From Antedon bifida (taxonomy: Eukaryota; Echinodermata; Crinoidea; Comatulida; Antedonidae): DNA of 64,000 nt. Position numbers and translations under genes: made by a program. Location: contig OY727093.1 of NCBI GenBank assembly GCA_963402885.1, positions 31,433,409 to 31,497,408 on the forward strand, in the 5' to 3' direction. A model generated the notes under the pieces. The model worked only from the letters and a program-made list of their open reading frames with translations, ran no database searches and was not told the origin of the DNA. The stretch's first letter is position 1; each line of letters starts with the position of its first letter. Below, in pieces: positions 1,999 through 41,800 of this stretch.

Positions 1999-3188
1999 AT
2001 GTCTACCCCAAATATTATTCATTTACCAAGTGATGAAGAGTTAGATGTTCCAGTTGTGCCATTAACGTCGTCCGCTTTAAAAGCAGGAGCTCACCATTAT
2101 GCTCGCTATTGTGACAAACAAAATAAGGTAGGCTAGGCCTCACTCTAGCTAGGCTCTAATAATCGATCTAAATCTAAGGACTAGCTAGAGCTAGGTACGG
2201 TGCACTCAGCGTGGTGACCGGCCTGAATCCGGCCTAGGCCTAATAGTAGGCTAGGCCTTGAGGAGAGACGTAGGCTAGTAGTAGCACTTGATCAGGTTAT
2301 AGACCAGTAAGGCCCTCCCCTGAGTGAGGCCATATTTATTATATTATTATTATTATTATTAATAGTTGGTGTCTGTCATCTAGGCCTAGCCTATCCTATA
2401 AATAAAATAATAAAATAGACCATGCATGGCATGCCGGTAGAATCACATGATGCATCCTCCATGTTCTTACATTTTTTGTTTCAGGAGTTCAAATTATGTA
2501 AAGCAGAAGAAATGGATCCTCGCAAGTGCTTGAATGAAGGCAATGATGTGACCGTGTGCGCTTTTGACTTCTTCCAAAAGTTAAGGAAACATTGCAACGA
2601 TTCGTTCACAGAATACTGGACGTGTCTCGACTACAGACAACAAAAACTGTACAAGTATGTTAAACTTTTAATTTTGCTGCTTGGATATCTTGTTTTTCAA
2701 GATTATTATCTGATGGATTTTCATTTATATTAAGCCTAATTATAATGTATATATGATTTATTAATAATAATTTCTTCTTTATTAATATAATATTTGATCA
2801 TTTACTAATAATAATGTCATTTACTATGTTTCTTTCAGATGTCGTCAAAAGCAAGCTGATTTTGATAAATGTGTACTAGATGAACTTGGCTGGATTCGAC
2901 CTAAGCTTGGTGAAATTAACACGGTTAGTTAGTGCTACATTTGTAAATGTTTTCACTTCAGTAGACATTTGCATGTTTGAATATAAGGGCTAGGTGAAAT
3001 GGTTAATCTGTACGAGTTGACTAATTCTAATTTATATTTATGCTGTTTTATAGGTAACAGTCCACAAGACCGATCGTCCACTGCCTGTCCGTACGTTACG
3101 GCCAAAACCAGAACCCACCCCTGAAATTGAGATACCCGATAACCTACCTCCTTCAAAGCTTGGCTCTAAGTTTTTCTTCTTTTGGTAG
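1999..3188 (+). CDS. NDUFA8: NADH dehydrogenase 1 alpha subcomplex subunit 8
   Basis: Four coding exons: 1999-2127, 2485-2654, 2839-2923, 3054-3188. They join in frame to 172 aa, a length equal to human NDUFA8. The product is an accessory subunit of mitochondrial complex I on the intermembrane-space side, imported by the Mia40 route. Twin CX9C-type cysteine motifs are visible: CDKQNKEFKLC and [11 protein letters not shown] in the first half, then [11 protein letters not shown] and [11 protein letters not shown]. The tail has the conserved [16 protein letters not shown] and GSKFFFFW-stop segments. All introns have GT-AG ends. It is head to head with HSPBAP1 and tail to tail with SPO16; AATAAA signals occur at 3387 and 3417. 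Confidence 0.95.
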
Positions 3189-3585: not shown

Positions 3586-6500
3586 TTATGTTTCTGCACT
3601 AAAGAAATTTACAATTTTCTCGGCTGTTTCTGATGCTAGACTCGTATGATCCAGCAGTTGTTGTTTTGTAGCATTCACAATGTTTGAAAGACTACCGCAG
3701 CCTTGCTGAAGAACAAAGCACTGTAAGCTGACAGTTAAGAACAAATACATAACTCTATACTAACTATTTTAATGTTCGCTCAATTTGCTGGGCTCTTTAT
3801 TGTCGGATGTGAATATAATATGTAGGGAATATACATACAGTCGCTGTACGTATAACTAGGCGCTAAAAAAGGATATGATGATCCGTGAGACCAATTCCCG
3901 AGAGACTTCCCAATATCATTGCATCATCTACGTGTCTCGTAGCAAGTGTATCTAACCTCTGTTTGAAAATTCCTGATGCATGCTTTCCTTTGGCCTGGAA
4001 GAAAAAAAATGCCATTGTTTGCCTTTTTAATAACATTTTAAGTTACTCTCTCTCTTGTTGAAGAGAGGTGTACTAAAGTAATACTAACCTGGCTGTATGT
4101 ATGCTAACTAACCTTTGCAATCATGGCCATTATTTTAGCTGTTTCACTATCACTATGTGAGGGTAGTATCTTCATCTTACTAGCAAAAACACTGGAAAGA
4201 CAAAGTTCAAATATTTTTCAAAAAATGGCGAAATGCGATATATGCATATGTTATAAATAAATGGCTACAAACACTCTATAAGATGATGATAATGCAATAT
4301 ATGCGTATATATAGCAATATTATTGCATAATAATTGAATTTTAAAAAGTGGATATTTTGGCCATTTTTCGAAAAAAATCCCTGTACTGTTAGTAAGGGAT
4401 TTTTTAGGAAAATGGCCAAATTTCGACCTTTTTATTTTTCGACATAAATAGTTACTATACGTCTATAAGATGATTATAACGCAATATATGCGCAAATAAA
4501 GCAATATTATTGCATAATAACACTATTTTAAAAAGTGCTTATTTTGGCCATTTTTCGAAAAAATCCCTGTACTATAGTAAGGGATTTTTTAGGAAAATGG
4601 CCAAATTTCGACCTTTTTATTTTTCGACATAAATGGTTACTATACGTTTATAAGATGATGATAATGCAATATATGCGCATATATAGTTTATAAGATGATG
4701 ATAATGCAATATATGCGCATATATAGCATAATAATCAAATTTTTTGGCCATCCCTGTTTTTAGGAAAATGGACAAATTTCGACCTTTTTATTTTTCGACA
4801 TAAATGGTTACTATACGTCTATAAGATGATTATATTGCAATATATGTGCATATATAGCAATATTATTGCATAATAATTGAATTTTAAAAAGTGGATATTT
4901 TGGCCATTTTTCGAAAAAATCCCTGTACTATAGTAAGGGATTTTTCCAAAAAAATGACCAAATTTCGACCATTTTAGTTTTCGAAATAAATAGTTGCAAA
5001 TACTCTATAAGATGATGATAATGCAATATATGTGCATATATAGCAATATTATCGCATAATAATCAAATTTTAAAAAGTGGATATTTTGGCCATTTTTCGA
5101 AAAAATCCCTGTACTATAGTAAGGGATTTTTTAGGAAAGTGACCAAATTTCAACCTTTTTATTTTTCGACATAAATGGTTACTATACGTCTATAAGATGA
5201 TTATAACGCAATATATGCGCATATATAGCAATATTATTGCATAATAACACTATTTTAAAAAGTGCTTATTTTGGCCATTTTCCGAAAAAATCCCTGTACT
5301 ATAGTAAGGGATTTTTTCAGAAAATGGCAAAATTTCGACCTTTTTATTTTTCGACATAAATGGTTACTATACGTCTATAAGATGATTATAACGCAATATA
5401 TGCGCATATATAGCAATATTATTGCATAATAACACTATTTTAAAAAGTGGATATTTTGGCTATTTTTTGAAAAAAATCCCTGTACTATAGTACAGGGATT
5501 TTTCCCAAAAATGACCAAATTTCGACGATTTTATTTTTCGAAATAAATAGTTGCAAATACTCTATAAGATGATGATAATGCAATATATGCGCATATATAG
5601 CAATATTATCGCATAATAACACTATTTTAAAAAGTGCTTATTTTGGCCATTTTTCGAAAAAATCCCTGTACTATAGTAAGGGATTTTTTAGGAAAATGGC
5701 CAAATTTCGACCTTTTTATTTTTCGACATAAATGGTTACTATACGTCTATAAGATGATTATAACGCAATATATGTGCATATATAGCAATATTATTGCATA
5801 ATAACACTATTTAAAAAAGTGCTTATTTTGGCCATTTTTTGAAAAAATCCCTGTACTATAGTAAGGGATTTTTTTCGGAAAATGGCCAAATTTCAACCTT
5901 TTTATTTTTCGACATAAATGGTTACTATACGTCTATAAGATGATTATAACGCAATATATGCGCATATATAGCAATATTATTGCATAATAACACTATTTTA
6001 AAAAGTGGATATTTTGGCCATTTTTCGAAAAAATCCCTGTACTATAGTAAGAGATTTTTTAGGAAAATGGCCAATTTTCGACCTTTTATTTTTCGACATA
6101 AATGGTTACTATACGTCTATAAGATGATTATAACGCAATATATGCGCATATATAGCAATATTATTGCATAATAACACTATTTTAAAAAGTGCTTATTTTG
6201 GCCATTTTTCGAAAAAATCCCTGTACTATAGTAAGGGATTTTTTAGGAAAATGGCCAAATTTCGACCTTTTTATTTTTCGACATAAATGGTTACTATACG
6301 TCTATAAGATGATTATAACGCAATATATGTGCATATATAGCAATATTGTTGCATAATAACACTATTTAAAAAAGTGCTTATTTTGGCCATTTTTTGAAAA
6401 AATCCCTGTACTATAGTAAGGGATTTTTTCCGGAAAATGGCCAAATTTCAACCTTTTTATTTTTCGACATAAATGGTTACTATACGTCTATAAGATGATT

Positions 6501-8602
6501 ATAACGCAATATATGCGCATATATAGCAATATTATTGCATAATAACACTATTTTAAAAAGTGGATATTTTGGCCATTTTTCGAAAAAATCCCTGTACTAT
6601 AGTAAGGGATTTTTTAGGAAAATGGCCAATTTTCGACCTTTTATTTTTCGACATAAATGGTTACTATACGTCTATAAGATGATTATAACGCAATATATGC
6701 GCATATATAGCAATATTATTGCATAATAACACTATTTTAAAAAGTGCTTATTTTGGCCATTTTTCGAAAAAATCCCTGTACTATAGTAAGGGATTTTTTA
6801 GGAAAATGGCCAAATTTCGACCTTTTTATTTTTCGACATAAATGGTTACTATACGTCTATAAGATGATTATAACGCAATATATGCGCATATATAGCAATA
6901 TTATTGCATAATAACACTATTTTAAAAAGTGGATATTTTGGCCATTTTTCGAAAAAATCCCTGTAGGCCTATTATAGTACAGGGATTTTTTCCAAAAACG
7001 ACCAAATTTCGTCCATTTTATCTTTCAAAATAAATAGTTGCAAACACTCTATAAGATGATGATAATGCAATATATGCGCATATATAGCAATATTATTGCA
7101 TAATAACACTATTTTAAAAAGTGCTTATTTTGGCCATTTTTGGAAAAAATCCCTGTACTAAAGTAAGGGATTTTTTCGGAAAATGGCCAAATTTCAACCT
7201 TTTTATTTTTCGACGTAAATGGTTACTATACGTCTATAAGATGATTATAATGCAATATATGCGCATATATAGCAATATTATTGGGTAATTAGTGGTTTGC
7301 TCATTACTATACCTTTAAACTTACCTGTTTTGTATGGCAAACATGAGAGACAATTCCCTCTGTTCATGCAGAGCAGATGACAGAATTAAGTAGCAGTTCT
7401 GATGACCACTTTGTAGTTGCTTCAACCTGTCGACAAAAATATTATGCAGTGGTTACATTTTGTGTTGTTACTCCTTCCAGCTCTTGTCTCTTCAACGCAT
7501 TGCCATATGATTGAGCAAATGCAACATCTGTGAAAGTTTTTGAAGCAAAAGTATTGATCAAATAAGGACTTTAATACCATTCTGGGCTACAAGGCATAAT
7601 TCTGACTGTGGGTCACAAGAGGCAAATTAGCCTATGTAATATATACCCACACCCAACAAGCCTTTCCCTACCCTTCCTCTGTTGATCTCCAGTGATGGAG
7701 CCACGAGAAATAAAGTGGTCCGGTTTTCGCAAGAAAGGGAACAATCTCTGTTCAAGCCACTGGGTTGTCAAAGGCCACAGCCATGATATCAGTGGGTAGT
7801 TCATGTCACCAACTTACACCAGTAATTAACTAAACCTGAATGGGTCTTTATGTTTAACTAATTTTCATTTGTGTAAAAGGTGTTGTTTCTCTTGATTGCA
7901 GATCACAAATTTATTTTCTCCCCAAACTAAACTTCACCTGCCAATCATCTGAAGTGAAAGGTCAACCTGTTGACCTGAATTAGGCAGTTGAGTGATAGTA
8001 GTGGTGGCATCATCAGCTCTTACAAGTAAAAATGTGACAGTTGAAAGTGGAAAGATGCAAGTATCCTTGGGGGTACTTTCTGAAACTTCAAATAAGAAAT
8101 TCAATGTTGTTAAAATAATTTACCAACACTGCCAACTCTCTATTTTAGCATTAAAAACACCAATTAACCAGACATATAGCATAGGCAGCCCAAGCAAGGG
8201 AAAGCCTCCTCCTCTCTAACCATGTCCTCCTAAACTAACTAAGGCCTAATAATAATTACAACAGATACAAATGGTCAATAAATGCCTTTCATCATCATTC
8301 CAATAATGGCTAGTTAGTTGTACTAGCTAGTCATTAGTATGGACTCATTCTAGTCGCTAGGCCTAGCTACAGTAGGTATCAGTCAAAAGTAGGCCTAGCA
8401 CTAGCTAGGCCTAAAGTAATAATAATAATATAGTAGGTAGGCCTAGGCTCTAGCTATAGGTAGGCCTCTAGTACATCATTAGAGAGGTATGCTATTCTAT
8501 TTACTTACATCTCACTTTATACTGTTTTTGTAAACACCTACAGATATCACAGTCAGCTAGGCTAGTATTGATAATAACAGGGTCAACGCTATGTTTTGCC
8601 AT
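3586..8602 (-). CDS. SPO16: SPO16/C1orf146-like meiotic crossover protein
   Basis: Six minus-strand exons, 8602-8509, 8085-7938, 7426-7325, 4191-4113, 3994-3877, 3722-3586, join in frame (phases 1, 2, 2, 0, 1) to 225 aa. The core resembles vertebrate C1orf146/SPO16, partner of SHOC1/Zip2 in the ZMM crossover machinery: KVRFSES, CIFPLSTVTFLLV, HQNCYLILSSALHEQREL, LMFAIQNR, KMKILPSHSDSETAKIMAMI. The C-terminal exon (VLQQGCGSLSNIVNATKQQL ... TAEKIVNFF) is a helix-hairpin-helix of XPF/ERCC1 type, as expected for SPO16. Exons are too short to give long open frames. Intron 5 has U12-type AT-AC signals; intron 3 is occupied by a 3.1-kb satellite. Identification rests on remembered family similarity; a database search would settle it. 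Confidence 0.75.
3723..3876 (-). other. U12-type AT-AC intron of SPO16
   Basis: On the minus strand the exon ends GATCATC and the intron begins ATATCCTTTT, an exact match to the minor-spliceosome AT-AC donor. It ends CAGCTTAC with a branch motif TTCTTAAC at 3741-3734, so the branch A lies 12 nt before the intron end, the usual U12 distance. Splicing here gives CAT C|AG TGC, which keeps the frame; no GT-AG choice does so before the in-frame TAG at the end of the open exon. Confidence 0.75.
4215..7283. repeat. AT-rich satellite, ~185-bp monomer, about 16 copies
   Basis: Tandem monomers of about 185 bp fill intron 3 of SPO16. Each carries an inverted repeat (TTGGCCATTTTTCGAAAA ... AAAATGGCCAAA around CTGTACTATAGTAAGGG) and a palindromic TATATGCGCATATA. 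Copies alternate between variants ('AGTGGATATTTTGG' versus 'AGTGCTTATTTTGG'; 'ACTCTATAAGATGATGATAATGC' type versus 'ACGTCTATAAG' type). Two 63-codon open frames at 5980 and 6535, 555 bp apart, differ by one residue, indicating a three-monomer higher-order unit. One copy near 4680-4760 is internally rearranged. The left edge is only about 24 nt from the exon-4 acceptor at 4191. Confidence 0.9.
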
Positions 8603-38800: not shown

Positions 38801-41800
38801 AACTAAATATTCAATACTAAGATATCAATTAACATTAGAAACAGCCCAGCAACAAATTTAACAACAATCGTTAGATAATTAAAGTGGTAATCTTACCAAA
38901 ACACTAGCATGGAAATCACAGAGAACTCTATCATTGTCAATGATAAAGGCAGTATTTGCACACTGTGTATAGTCTGACTGGATGCCTGTACATTGATAAA
39001 ATATCTGTTGATGTTCATTTTCTATAATATCTGATATAACAGTATAAGGTCACTAACATAGATCATTACATTACTATCCACAAATAATGCATTGGTATTA
39101 AGCTCTGTCTACACTATCAAAATAGTTTGACAAAAAAATGTGATGTGTCCAAATATGGTAGTGATATATATAATATATAAAAATTTAATCTGTAACTCTT
39201 ACAGAGTGTTCTAGATGGCATGTAATAAATAAATGCAGATTCAAAATAAGCGGGCCTTTGAGTTGTTAATGAAGGCTTGTCTGACCATTCCAACATTATC
39301 GAGAACCTGTTTGAATAACGTGTTCGTATTTCTACCACGCTTAAATGTGATATGACATCATCATGTCCATATTTGGGCACATCCCATTTTTTTGTCACAT
39401 AAAGTTTGATAGTGTAGACAAGGTTTAGGGTTTTGTATAACACCAGGTAATGGCTACTGTAACAATGTCAGTAAAAAGGATTAATTTACATGACTATAAT
39501 AAGATGTTTGATACTGTTAAAAAACAAAAAGGGTTGAACATAGATAATGTGTGATTGTGCTTATCTGCAACATATTATTAAAATAAAATAATACAACAGA
39601 AAAAGGATACGGTTGAAGCAATGTGTTGCAAAAGGCATGCTCTTTGCTCCACACTCTTTGCCATCTTCATCTTTAAAACAACAATCAGGGGCGTGACAAA
39701 CTTTCCGATGCTTTTCTCTGTTTAAAAAAACAAAACACATTAACAATTACTCACTATTAAATATACATACAAACAGTTAACAGTATACAGTATAGTGTAG
39801 TGAACTGGGAATATGATGTCTTAATTCATTAATGAATTGTAGGGGTGTATTCTATTGATAAATATATTTTTTAATTGTAACTAAATTTATTTTTATGAGG
39901 CTAAAACATTTGTATCATAGATACTTTATCTAAAGCTCTGTCTACACTATCAAACTAGTTTGACAAAAAAAGAGTGATGTGCCCAAATATTGTAGTGATA
40001 TGCTTCAATATGGTAGTGTTATGACATCATCATGTCCACATCACATTTTTTTGTCACATATTAAGTTTGAAAGTGTGGACAGAGCTTTAAATATTGTAGA
40101 TCTTCATCTAATATTCAACGAATCACATGTTTCTTTTCAGCTTTTTGTTCCAATAACAAGGATCTTTCATTACAAATATTTTGAAAAACATACCGTCTAG
40201 GTAATTGGTTTTTGATTTCTAGAAGTAACTTTGTCGTTGATGCTACGTGTTGCCTGGTGGCTTCTGATAGAGCTAAGCATGATGCACGCTCCGACGCTTG
40301 TTCACGCTTCGACGACTCTGACCTCAACGCTAACAGACAGTTCTTACGAACATGAGATTTAAGTTGTTTTAAATAATCACTACGAGATATTTCAGTGCTA
40401 CTTCTGAAAGGGAAATTAAGAGTTAAATGCAATCACTTAGAAAGTGTATTACAAAAATTTATTTAAATAATCACGAAGAGATATTTCAGTGCTACCTCTA
40501 GAAGGGAAAAAAGAGTTACATGCAATAAATTAGAGAGTGTATTACAAAAATTAAACATACATGATGGTTACAGTACTAATAGTAGTACGTATAAATGACT
40601 ACTTAATGTTATAAATAGATAAATATATCATAATTGTGACTGTGAAACCATGGAGGTATACATCTATGGTAAAACAAACAAATAATAATAATGTAGTTTT
40701 AGCCTTTCTTTCAATGTGTTGTTCATTTATGTGTAATAGACGATGCTTCCTATTGTGGAACTTGTTTTTGTAAGTTGGATAAATTCTTGGCAACAGTATT
40801 ATTTTAAAATTACATAAAAACAAAACATTGGCAAATACAGAGTTATACAGTATCTAAATAAAATACTGTACAAACACTCAATCTGTCTACATAGCTATCT
40901 CCAATTTCTTTTCCTATTTAATTATAGCATCTTCGCATACAGTATATAACACAATACTCAAGGTCACAATCATAAAGTACATACATAGTGTGTAAAATAT
41001 ATTATTACTATTTATCCTAAAATTAACCCGAACAAAAGGTCTACTGTCCTTTCTGCTGCAGTATTAGCACACTTACAGGAAGTTTGAGTCCATTACAAGC
41101 CAGTCCTTTGAAATTTGATTTTTATAATATGATTATATATTCATTTCATTTATTTCGTTTTTTATAAATAATAACAAAATCACAAGGTACAGAATTGCTA
41201 CATACTTTTTTGTTTCTTCATCAGATGGTGAGAAAGATGTCCTATGACAAACAGGAATTTGGTTACTTTCTTTTTCACTATCTTCATCTTCAGAGTCTTC
41301 TAAACCTAAACAATTTTTAATAACGTGTTATTGGAGAATAATGTACAAAATAAATACTATTAAAAAATGAAACAATAATTGTTACAAAATTTATCAAATG
41401 TATGATGTAATTGTGAATGTTTTGTTTGTTTTACCATGTTTCTGTCGGGGAAAACAATTTTTCCATCTACACATTTTGTATGGAACAAATAAAGATGTGA
41501 TTTGATTATGTATTTGGAAGCTAAGAAATTATGATATTATTACATTTTGATTTAAAACTACATGTTCCAATGGATACAGTAACTTTAGAAACTATTGCTC
41601 TGTCTACACTATCAAACTTTATGTGACGAAAAAATGTGATCTGCCCATATATGGACATTATGATGTCATATCACTACCGGAACCATATTTGGGCAAATCA
41701 CACTTCTTTTGTCAAACTAGTGTAGAGCTTAAATCTGTACAACTAGTTTCAAACATGCAAAACAAATTAACTCCAACAATAGAAAATAGCTCCTTTACAG

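Follow-up and report, generated by a model that had tools for sequence, protein, structure and literature searches.

SPO16 relatives and minor-class introns

SPO16 proteins are characterized by binding to SHOC1/ZIP2 and by a role in class I crossovers. Zip2-Spo16 and SHOC1-PTD are described in an early paper as XPF-ERCC1-like complexes on joint molecules (PMC6155065), and the same paper reports that mammalian SPO16 was missed by BLAST with Spo16 and PTD. The plant SPO16, Arabidopsis PARTING DANCERS (PTD; sequence from PMC9957857), is ERCC1-like and ends in a (HhH)2 domain, and the archaeal Hef and XPF nucleases, Hef being a helicase-nuclease, likewise have an ERCC4-like region followed by (HhH)2. 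Minor introns are reported to be biased away from phase 0 and to have AT-AC ends in about a quarter of mammalian cases, according to three papers (PMC10639083, PMC7367187, PMC6717393). AT-AC introns and SPO16 are each already known, and in the open literature searched no paper was found on SPO16 with the minor spliceosome or a minor intron; among the matches listed there for C1orf146, the human SPO16, with a minor intron or U12-type, none named C1orf146.

A SPO16 homologue in Antedon bifida

The window analyzed here is a stretch of 64,000 nucleotides of the crinoid Antedon bifida (contig OY727093.1). Its minus strand contains, from 8602 to 3586, a gene model of six exons coding for 225 amino acids (678 nt including the stop codon), the upstream part of which was built by matching to the family. 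The features of the model, in order of transcription, are as follows.

8509..8602, minus strand: exon 1, with the ATG at 8602 (MAKHSVDPVIINTS...), within the PF15162 match
7938..8085, minus strand: exon 2, PF15162
7325..7426, minus strand: exon 3, PF15162
4113..4191, minus strand: exon 4, PF15162
3877..3994, minus strand: exon 5, ending ...GGATCATC in phase 1
3586..3722, minus strand: exon 6, with the remainder of the (HhH)2 domain (QCFVLQQGCGSLSNIVNATKQQLLDHTSLASETAEKIVNFFSAET) and the stop codon TAA
3331..3336, minus strand: AATAAA beyond the stop codon of exon 6

The spliced product matches PF15162 (SCRE, SPO16) over residues 9 to 165 (E 3.9e-30) at 105.1 bits, well over the gathering cut-off of 27, and on this match the gene is a SPO16 homologue. 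Introns 1 to 4 are GT-AG introns, with a weak acceptor for intron 1 (TTGAAG); we infer both this acceptor and the start codon of exon 1 from the family alignment. Most of intron 3 is occupied by a tandem repeat (4275-7283) with a 185-bp unit (also 371 bp), present in 16.3 copies with 89% matches. The neighboring genes are a Cupin_8/JmjC gene at about 1-1900 on the minus strand, which we take to be HSPBAP1-like, and a CX9C gene at about 1999-3188 on the plus strand, convergent with SPO16 and presumably NDUFA8-like, which scores 24.0 bits, below a cut-off of 26.4.

The last intron has AT-AC ends and U12-type signals

The intron between exons 5 and 6 is very probably a minor-class AT-AC intron (3876-3723), the removal of which would give the 225-aa ERCC1-like protein. 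Its features are these.

3723..3876, minus strand: AT-AC intron, U12-type by its signals, 154 nt, phase 1
3867..3876, minus strand: U12-type 5' splice site ATATCCTTTT, fitting the ATATCCTT donor pattern
3796..3801, minus strand: AATAAA, which may be a poly(A) signal used by a short form
3734..3741, minus strand: branch motif TTCTTAAC, with the branch A 12 nt before the intron end

Read on the minus strand, the intron (66% A+T) runs from ATATCCTTTT to TTCTTAACTGTCAGCTTAC with a terminal AC, and the junction 3877/3722 fuses CAT C to AG TGC in frame. An earlier note on this DNA had proposed the intron, and on re-reading the sequence its coordinates, donor, branch motif, AC 12 nt past the branch A, and CAT C|AG TGC fusion are all as that note gave them. 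The U12 branch consensus is near TTCCTTRAY, with its A about 10 to 16 nt from the 3' end, and TTCTTAAC at 12 nt agrees with this consensus and range in motif and in spacing. The first nine letters of the donor are shared with the human SMYD2 U12-type donor ATATCCTTTA, and TTCTTAACT is common to the branch region here and a rice U12-type branch region, both as printed in PMC7367187. The intron thus resembles U12-type AT-AC introns such as that of SMYD2 in its ATATCCTTT donor, CTTRAC-type branch, AC end, and phase 1; the SMYD2 intron lies in another gene. These signals support a U12-type reading. Several AT-AC introns are reported to be spliced by the major spliceosome (PMC6717393), but such removal is very improbable here, as nine donor letters and nine branch-region letters are identical to the U12-type examples printed in PMC7367187.

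As single motifs, the signals occur in the window at about chance frequency: RTATCCTTT is found twice (1.97 expected), and TTCTTAAC followed by YAC once (0.81 expected). For the donor (RTATCCTT) and the strict branch paired on one strand within 1,000 nt, the window has one case, where 300 Markov resamples average 0.05. Relaxing the branch to TTCTTRAY and the end to YAC or YAG leaves one case (resample mean 0.30), and relaxing the branch much further gives four (mean 3.7), which is uninformative. Under assumed search ranges, a Markov estimate puts the number of pairs expected at this junction, with the frame kept, at 3e-6 to 8e-6. Since the single motifs are at chance levels in 64 kb, the weight lies on their placement at both edges of homologous coding sequence.

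An Rfam scan of the window returned no family at gathering score, and hence no sign of an snRNA gene. Another match to the U12-type donor, GTATCCTTTTT, lies at 39602-39610 on the minus strand, immediately after an exon coding for CFKDEDGKECGAKSMPFATHCFN, in a gene that we take to be KANSL2-like (Pfam zf-C3Hc3H, 21.1 bits, below the cut-off of 27). Its likely acceptor, near 38985, has an AG end, and visual inspection there reveals no clear U12 branch motif.

Exon 6 would complete a (HhH)2 module

Exon 5 codes for the first hairpin (SLSGIGLTDH) of the (HhH)2 domain, and alignments to Hef and to PTD both pass through it; exon 6 contributes 45 residues, the first codon of which is begun in exon 5. 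Exon 6 alone aligns to the end of Arabidopsis PTD with a score of 71 (shuffle maximum 54, n=5000). The whole spliced product scores 97 against PTD (shuffle maximum 58, n=2000) and the intron-retained form only 39; the link to PTD is therefore hardly visible without exon 6. By BLASTP the spliced product matches PTD at 39.3 bits (E 2e-08 for that one comparison), and the two proteins share 25% identity over 151 columns, the alignment extending through exon 6. PTD passes HHH_5 (35.3 bits) and HHH_2 (28.2), whereas the Antedon protein passes neither; HHH_2 gives 17.6 to 21.7 bits for the protein and for exon 6, below the cut-off of 27, and is useless for testing the junction because exon 6 alone scores like the spliced product. 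Although HHH_2 falls below its cut-off, the Hef and PTD alignments allow an ERCC4-like domain and, after it, a C-terminal (HhH)2 to be recognized, and the comparisons support exon 6 as coding sequence that would complete the (HhH)2 module. The proposal of the earlier note, a SPO16-type gene with a C-terminal helix-hairpin-helix exon, is thereby backed by the PF15162 match, the alignment of exon 6 with PTD, and the Hef match described below. Searches of the PDB with the protein gave nothing meaningful, and a scan of viral contigs found no relative.

Homology and U12 signals together place the junction

The in-frame open pairs in the range searched comprise 17 GT-AG, 9 GC-AG, 33 AT-AC, 49 AT-AG, and 13 GT-AC, and the 17 GT-AG pairs make it too strong to say, as the earlier note did, that only this splice joins the exons in frame. 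Among the 108 GT-AG, GC-AG, AT-AC, and AT-AG pairs, which were inspected one by one, only 3877/3722 combines the U12 donor with a correctly spaced U12 branch motif.

Seven forms were compared using the NCBIfam Hef profile, including five hand-picked products of the 17 GT-AG pairs. The highest score is that of the AT-AC product, with residues 79 to 222 aligned to positions 631 to 776 of 781 at 27.5 bits, far under the family cut-off of 610 but similar to the 25.2 bits of PTD, a known member used as a control; the alignment covers both the ERCC4-like region and (HhH)2. The five GT-AG products score 16.3, 12.7, 13.7, 11.8, and 18.7 bits, and the intron-retained form has no match to this profile. 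A locus model, drawn from 43 of the 80 loci that were fetched, gives 28.3 bits to the AT-AC product and 14.8 to the intron-retained form, and 24.0 is the highest value among 37 GT-AG and GC-AG products.

It is exceedingly improbable that the major spliceosome instead connects exon 5 with exon 6 through a different in-frame GT-AG or GC-AG pair. The 17 and 9 open pairs would allow this, and GC-AG 3923/3759 comes close on PTD, scoring 81 against 84 for 3877/3722. However, the donors (GTTAGATAC, GTAGATGAT, GTCTCTCGG, and GTCTCACGG; GCTACGAGA, GCAATGATA, and GCGCCTAGT) deviate from GTAAGT, those of 12 of the 17 GT-AG pairs precede the hairpin SLSGIG, and the scores are lower with both the locus model (24.0 at best for the 37 products versus 28.3 bits) and the Hef profile (11.8 to 18.7 for the five GT-AG products versus 27.5). 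The GT-AG and GC-AG junctions were rejected for these lower scores and poor donor sites.

Scoring with the locus model and against PTD was applied to 3,674 distinct in-frame products, 37 of them with GT-AG or GC-AG ends, from a somewhat wider range than that of the first count, and with any ends allowed, the 3877/3722 junction ranks 69th of 3,674 by the locus model and 20th of 3,674 against PTD. Of the best 25 by the locus model, 22 are 222 to 224 aa long and so fall short of the 225-aa product by one to three residues. A single one of the 25 has AT-AC ends, the pair 3883/3722 (donor ATCATCATAT), which scores 33.3 bits and, against PTD, 85 to the 84 of 3877/3722. The AT donor at 3880 with acceptor 3722 scores 29.5 bits by the locus model, and the AT-AG pair 3875/3720 nearly ties, at 28.1 bits and 83 against PTD. 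Since some other in-frame junctions have equal or higher scores, homology alone narrows the junction down to a few residues, and its exact base would be set by the U12 signals, as a U12 donor is absent at the rival AT sites 3883, 3880, and 3875. The sequence itself shows the motifs, the reading frame, and homology that continues from exon 5 into exon 6 across the 3877/3722 junction.

Predicted splicing and its products

That the gene is transcribed, that the minor spliceosome acts on it, and that its product binds a partner and DNA are all inferences from the sequence. In minor introns, U11 and then U6atac act at the donor and U12 acts at the branch. The U11/U12-U4atac/U6atac spliceosome would thus excise 3876-3723, with ATATCCTTTT pairing with U11 and later with U6atac and TTCTTAAC pairing with U12, and splicing would unite the first hairpin, encoded by exon 5, with the second half of the (HhH)2 module, encoded by exon 6. 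Judging from XPF-ERCC1 and SHOC1-PTD, the full module would bind a SHOC1/ZIP2 partner and branched recombination DNA, and full SPO16 would act on joint molecules in an XPF-ERCC1-like complex with SHOC1.

If the intron is retained, the frame reaches a stop four codons on, ending ...LTDHHILF at 184 aa, and retention would yield a truncated SPO16 without the (HhH)2 module. The LTDHHILF end that the earlier note gave is confirmed for the retained frame, with the TAG following it. The intronic AATAAA may serve such a short form or may be a chance occurrence in 66% A+T sequence.

Comparison with human SPO16

The human SPO16 sequence used for comparison (180 aa) is a provisional one checked against PF15162, which it matches at 286.5 bits over residues 10 to 170, reaching the profile end; the provisional sequence is therefore close to right. 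Its length is similar to that implied by a reported variant, p.Leu89Trpfs*15, which removes 42.5% of the protein according to PMC12162868 (a table there prints fs*18). By BLASTP the Antedon protein shares 28% identity with this human sequence over 170 columns (73.9 bits), and it is nearer to it than to PTD (39.3 bits). Antedon residue 177 pairs with human residue 172 of 180, and the last eight human residues are unaligned; the human end therefore corresponds approximately to Antedon residue 185, whereas the AT-AC junction falls at 180/181, and residue 184 is the last one of the retained form. Thus human SPO16 belongs to the same family and, in this provisional sequence, stops at about the AT-AC junction, without a counterpart of exon 6; by this comparison it has either lost exon 6 or been annotated without it.

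It might be supposed that exon 5 is the true end of the gene. The normal product would then be the protein of 184 aa ending ...LTDHHILF, perhaps arising through polyadenylation within the intron, and exon 6 would be a relic or belong to a minor isoform. The retained open reading frame and the AATAAA at 3801-3796 would fit this, as would human SPO16 (the provisional sequence) stopping at about the equivalent point and the PF15162 profile ending about five residues before the junction, as judged through the human alignment. But exon 6 has an open, in-frame, PTD-like sequence, which a relic would hardly be expected to keep, and intact U12 signals lie at its edge, making an end in exon 5 improbable and favoring the six-exon gene with a minor-class last intron.

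Partner binding is addressed by several reports. Human SPO16 is described with an HhH domain in PMC12162868, contacts between its C-terminal helices and SHOC1 are modelled in PMC11377751, and in vitro, according to PMC13245411, SHOC1 is bound by mouse SPO16 and not by human C1orf146. The contact model and the binding of mouse SPO16 count against exon 6 being required for binding.

Implications for SPO16 and crossover formation

We consider it a tentative and rather unlikely proposal that ancestral animal SPO16 had a full (HhH)2 with its second half behind an AT-AC intron, and that the human 180-aa form lacks this half through either a missed U12-spliced exon or vertebrate loss. If this were true and the exon had been missed in vertebrate models and clones, minor-intron splicing would toggle between full and truncated SHOC1-binding SPO16, and crossover formation would depend on the minor spliceosome. 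A simple cause could then account for the reported lack of in vitro binding between human C1orf146 and SHOC1, but mouse SPO16 was bound in the same report (PMC13245411).

A gene finder restricted to GT-AG introns would skip or misjoin exon 6, and both the PF15162 model and the human protein end near its start. The exon completing the ERCC1-like domain of this meiotic crossover gene appears, from its signals and homology, to need the minor spliceosome, raising the testable question of whether there is an unannotated U12-spliced last exon in vertebrate SPO16 genes.
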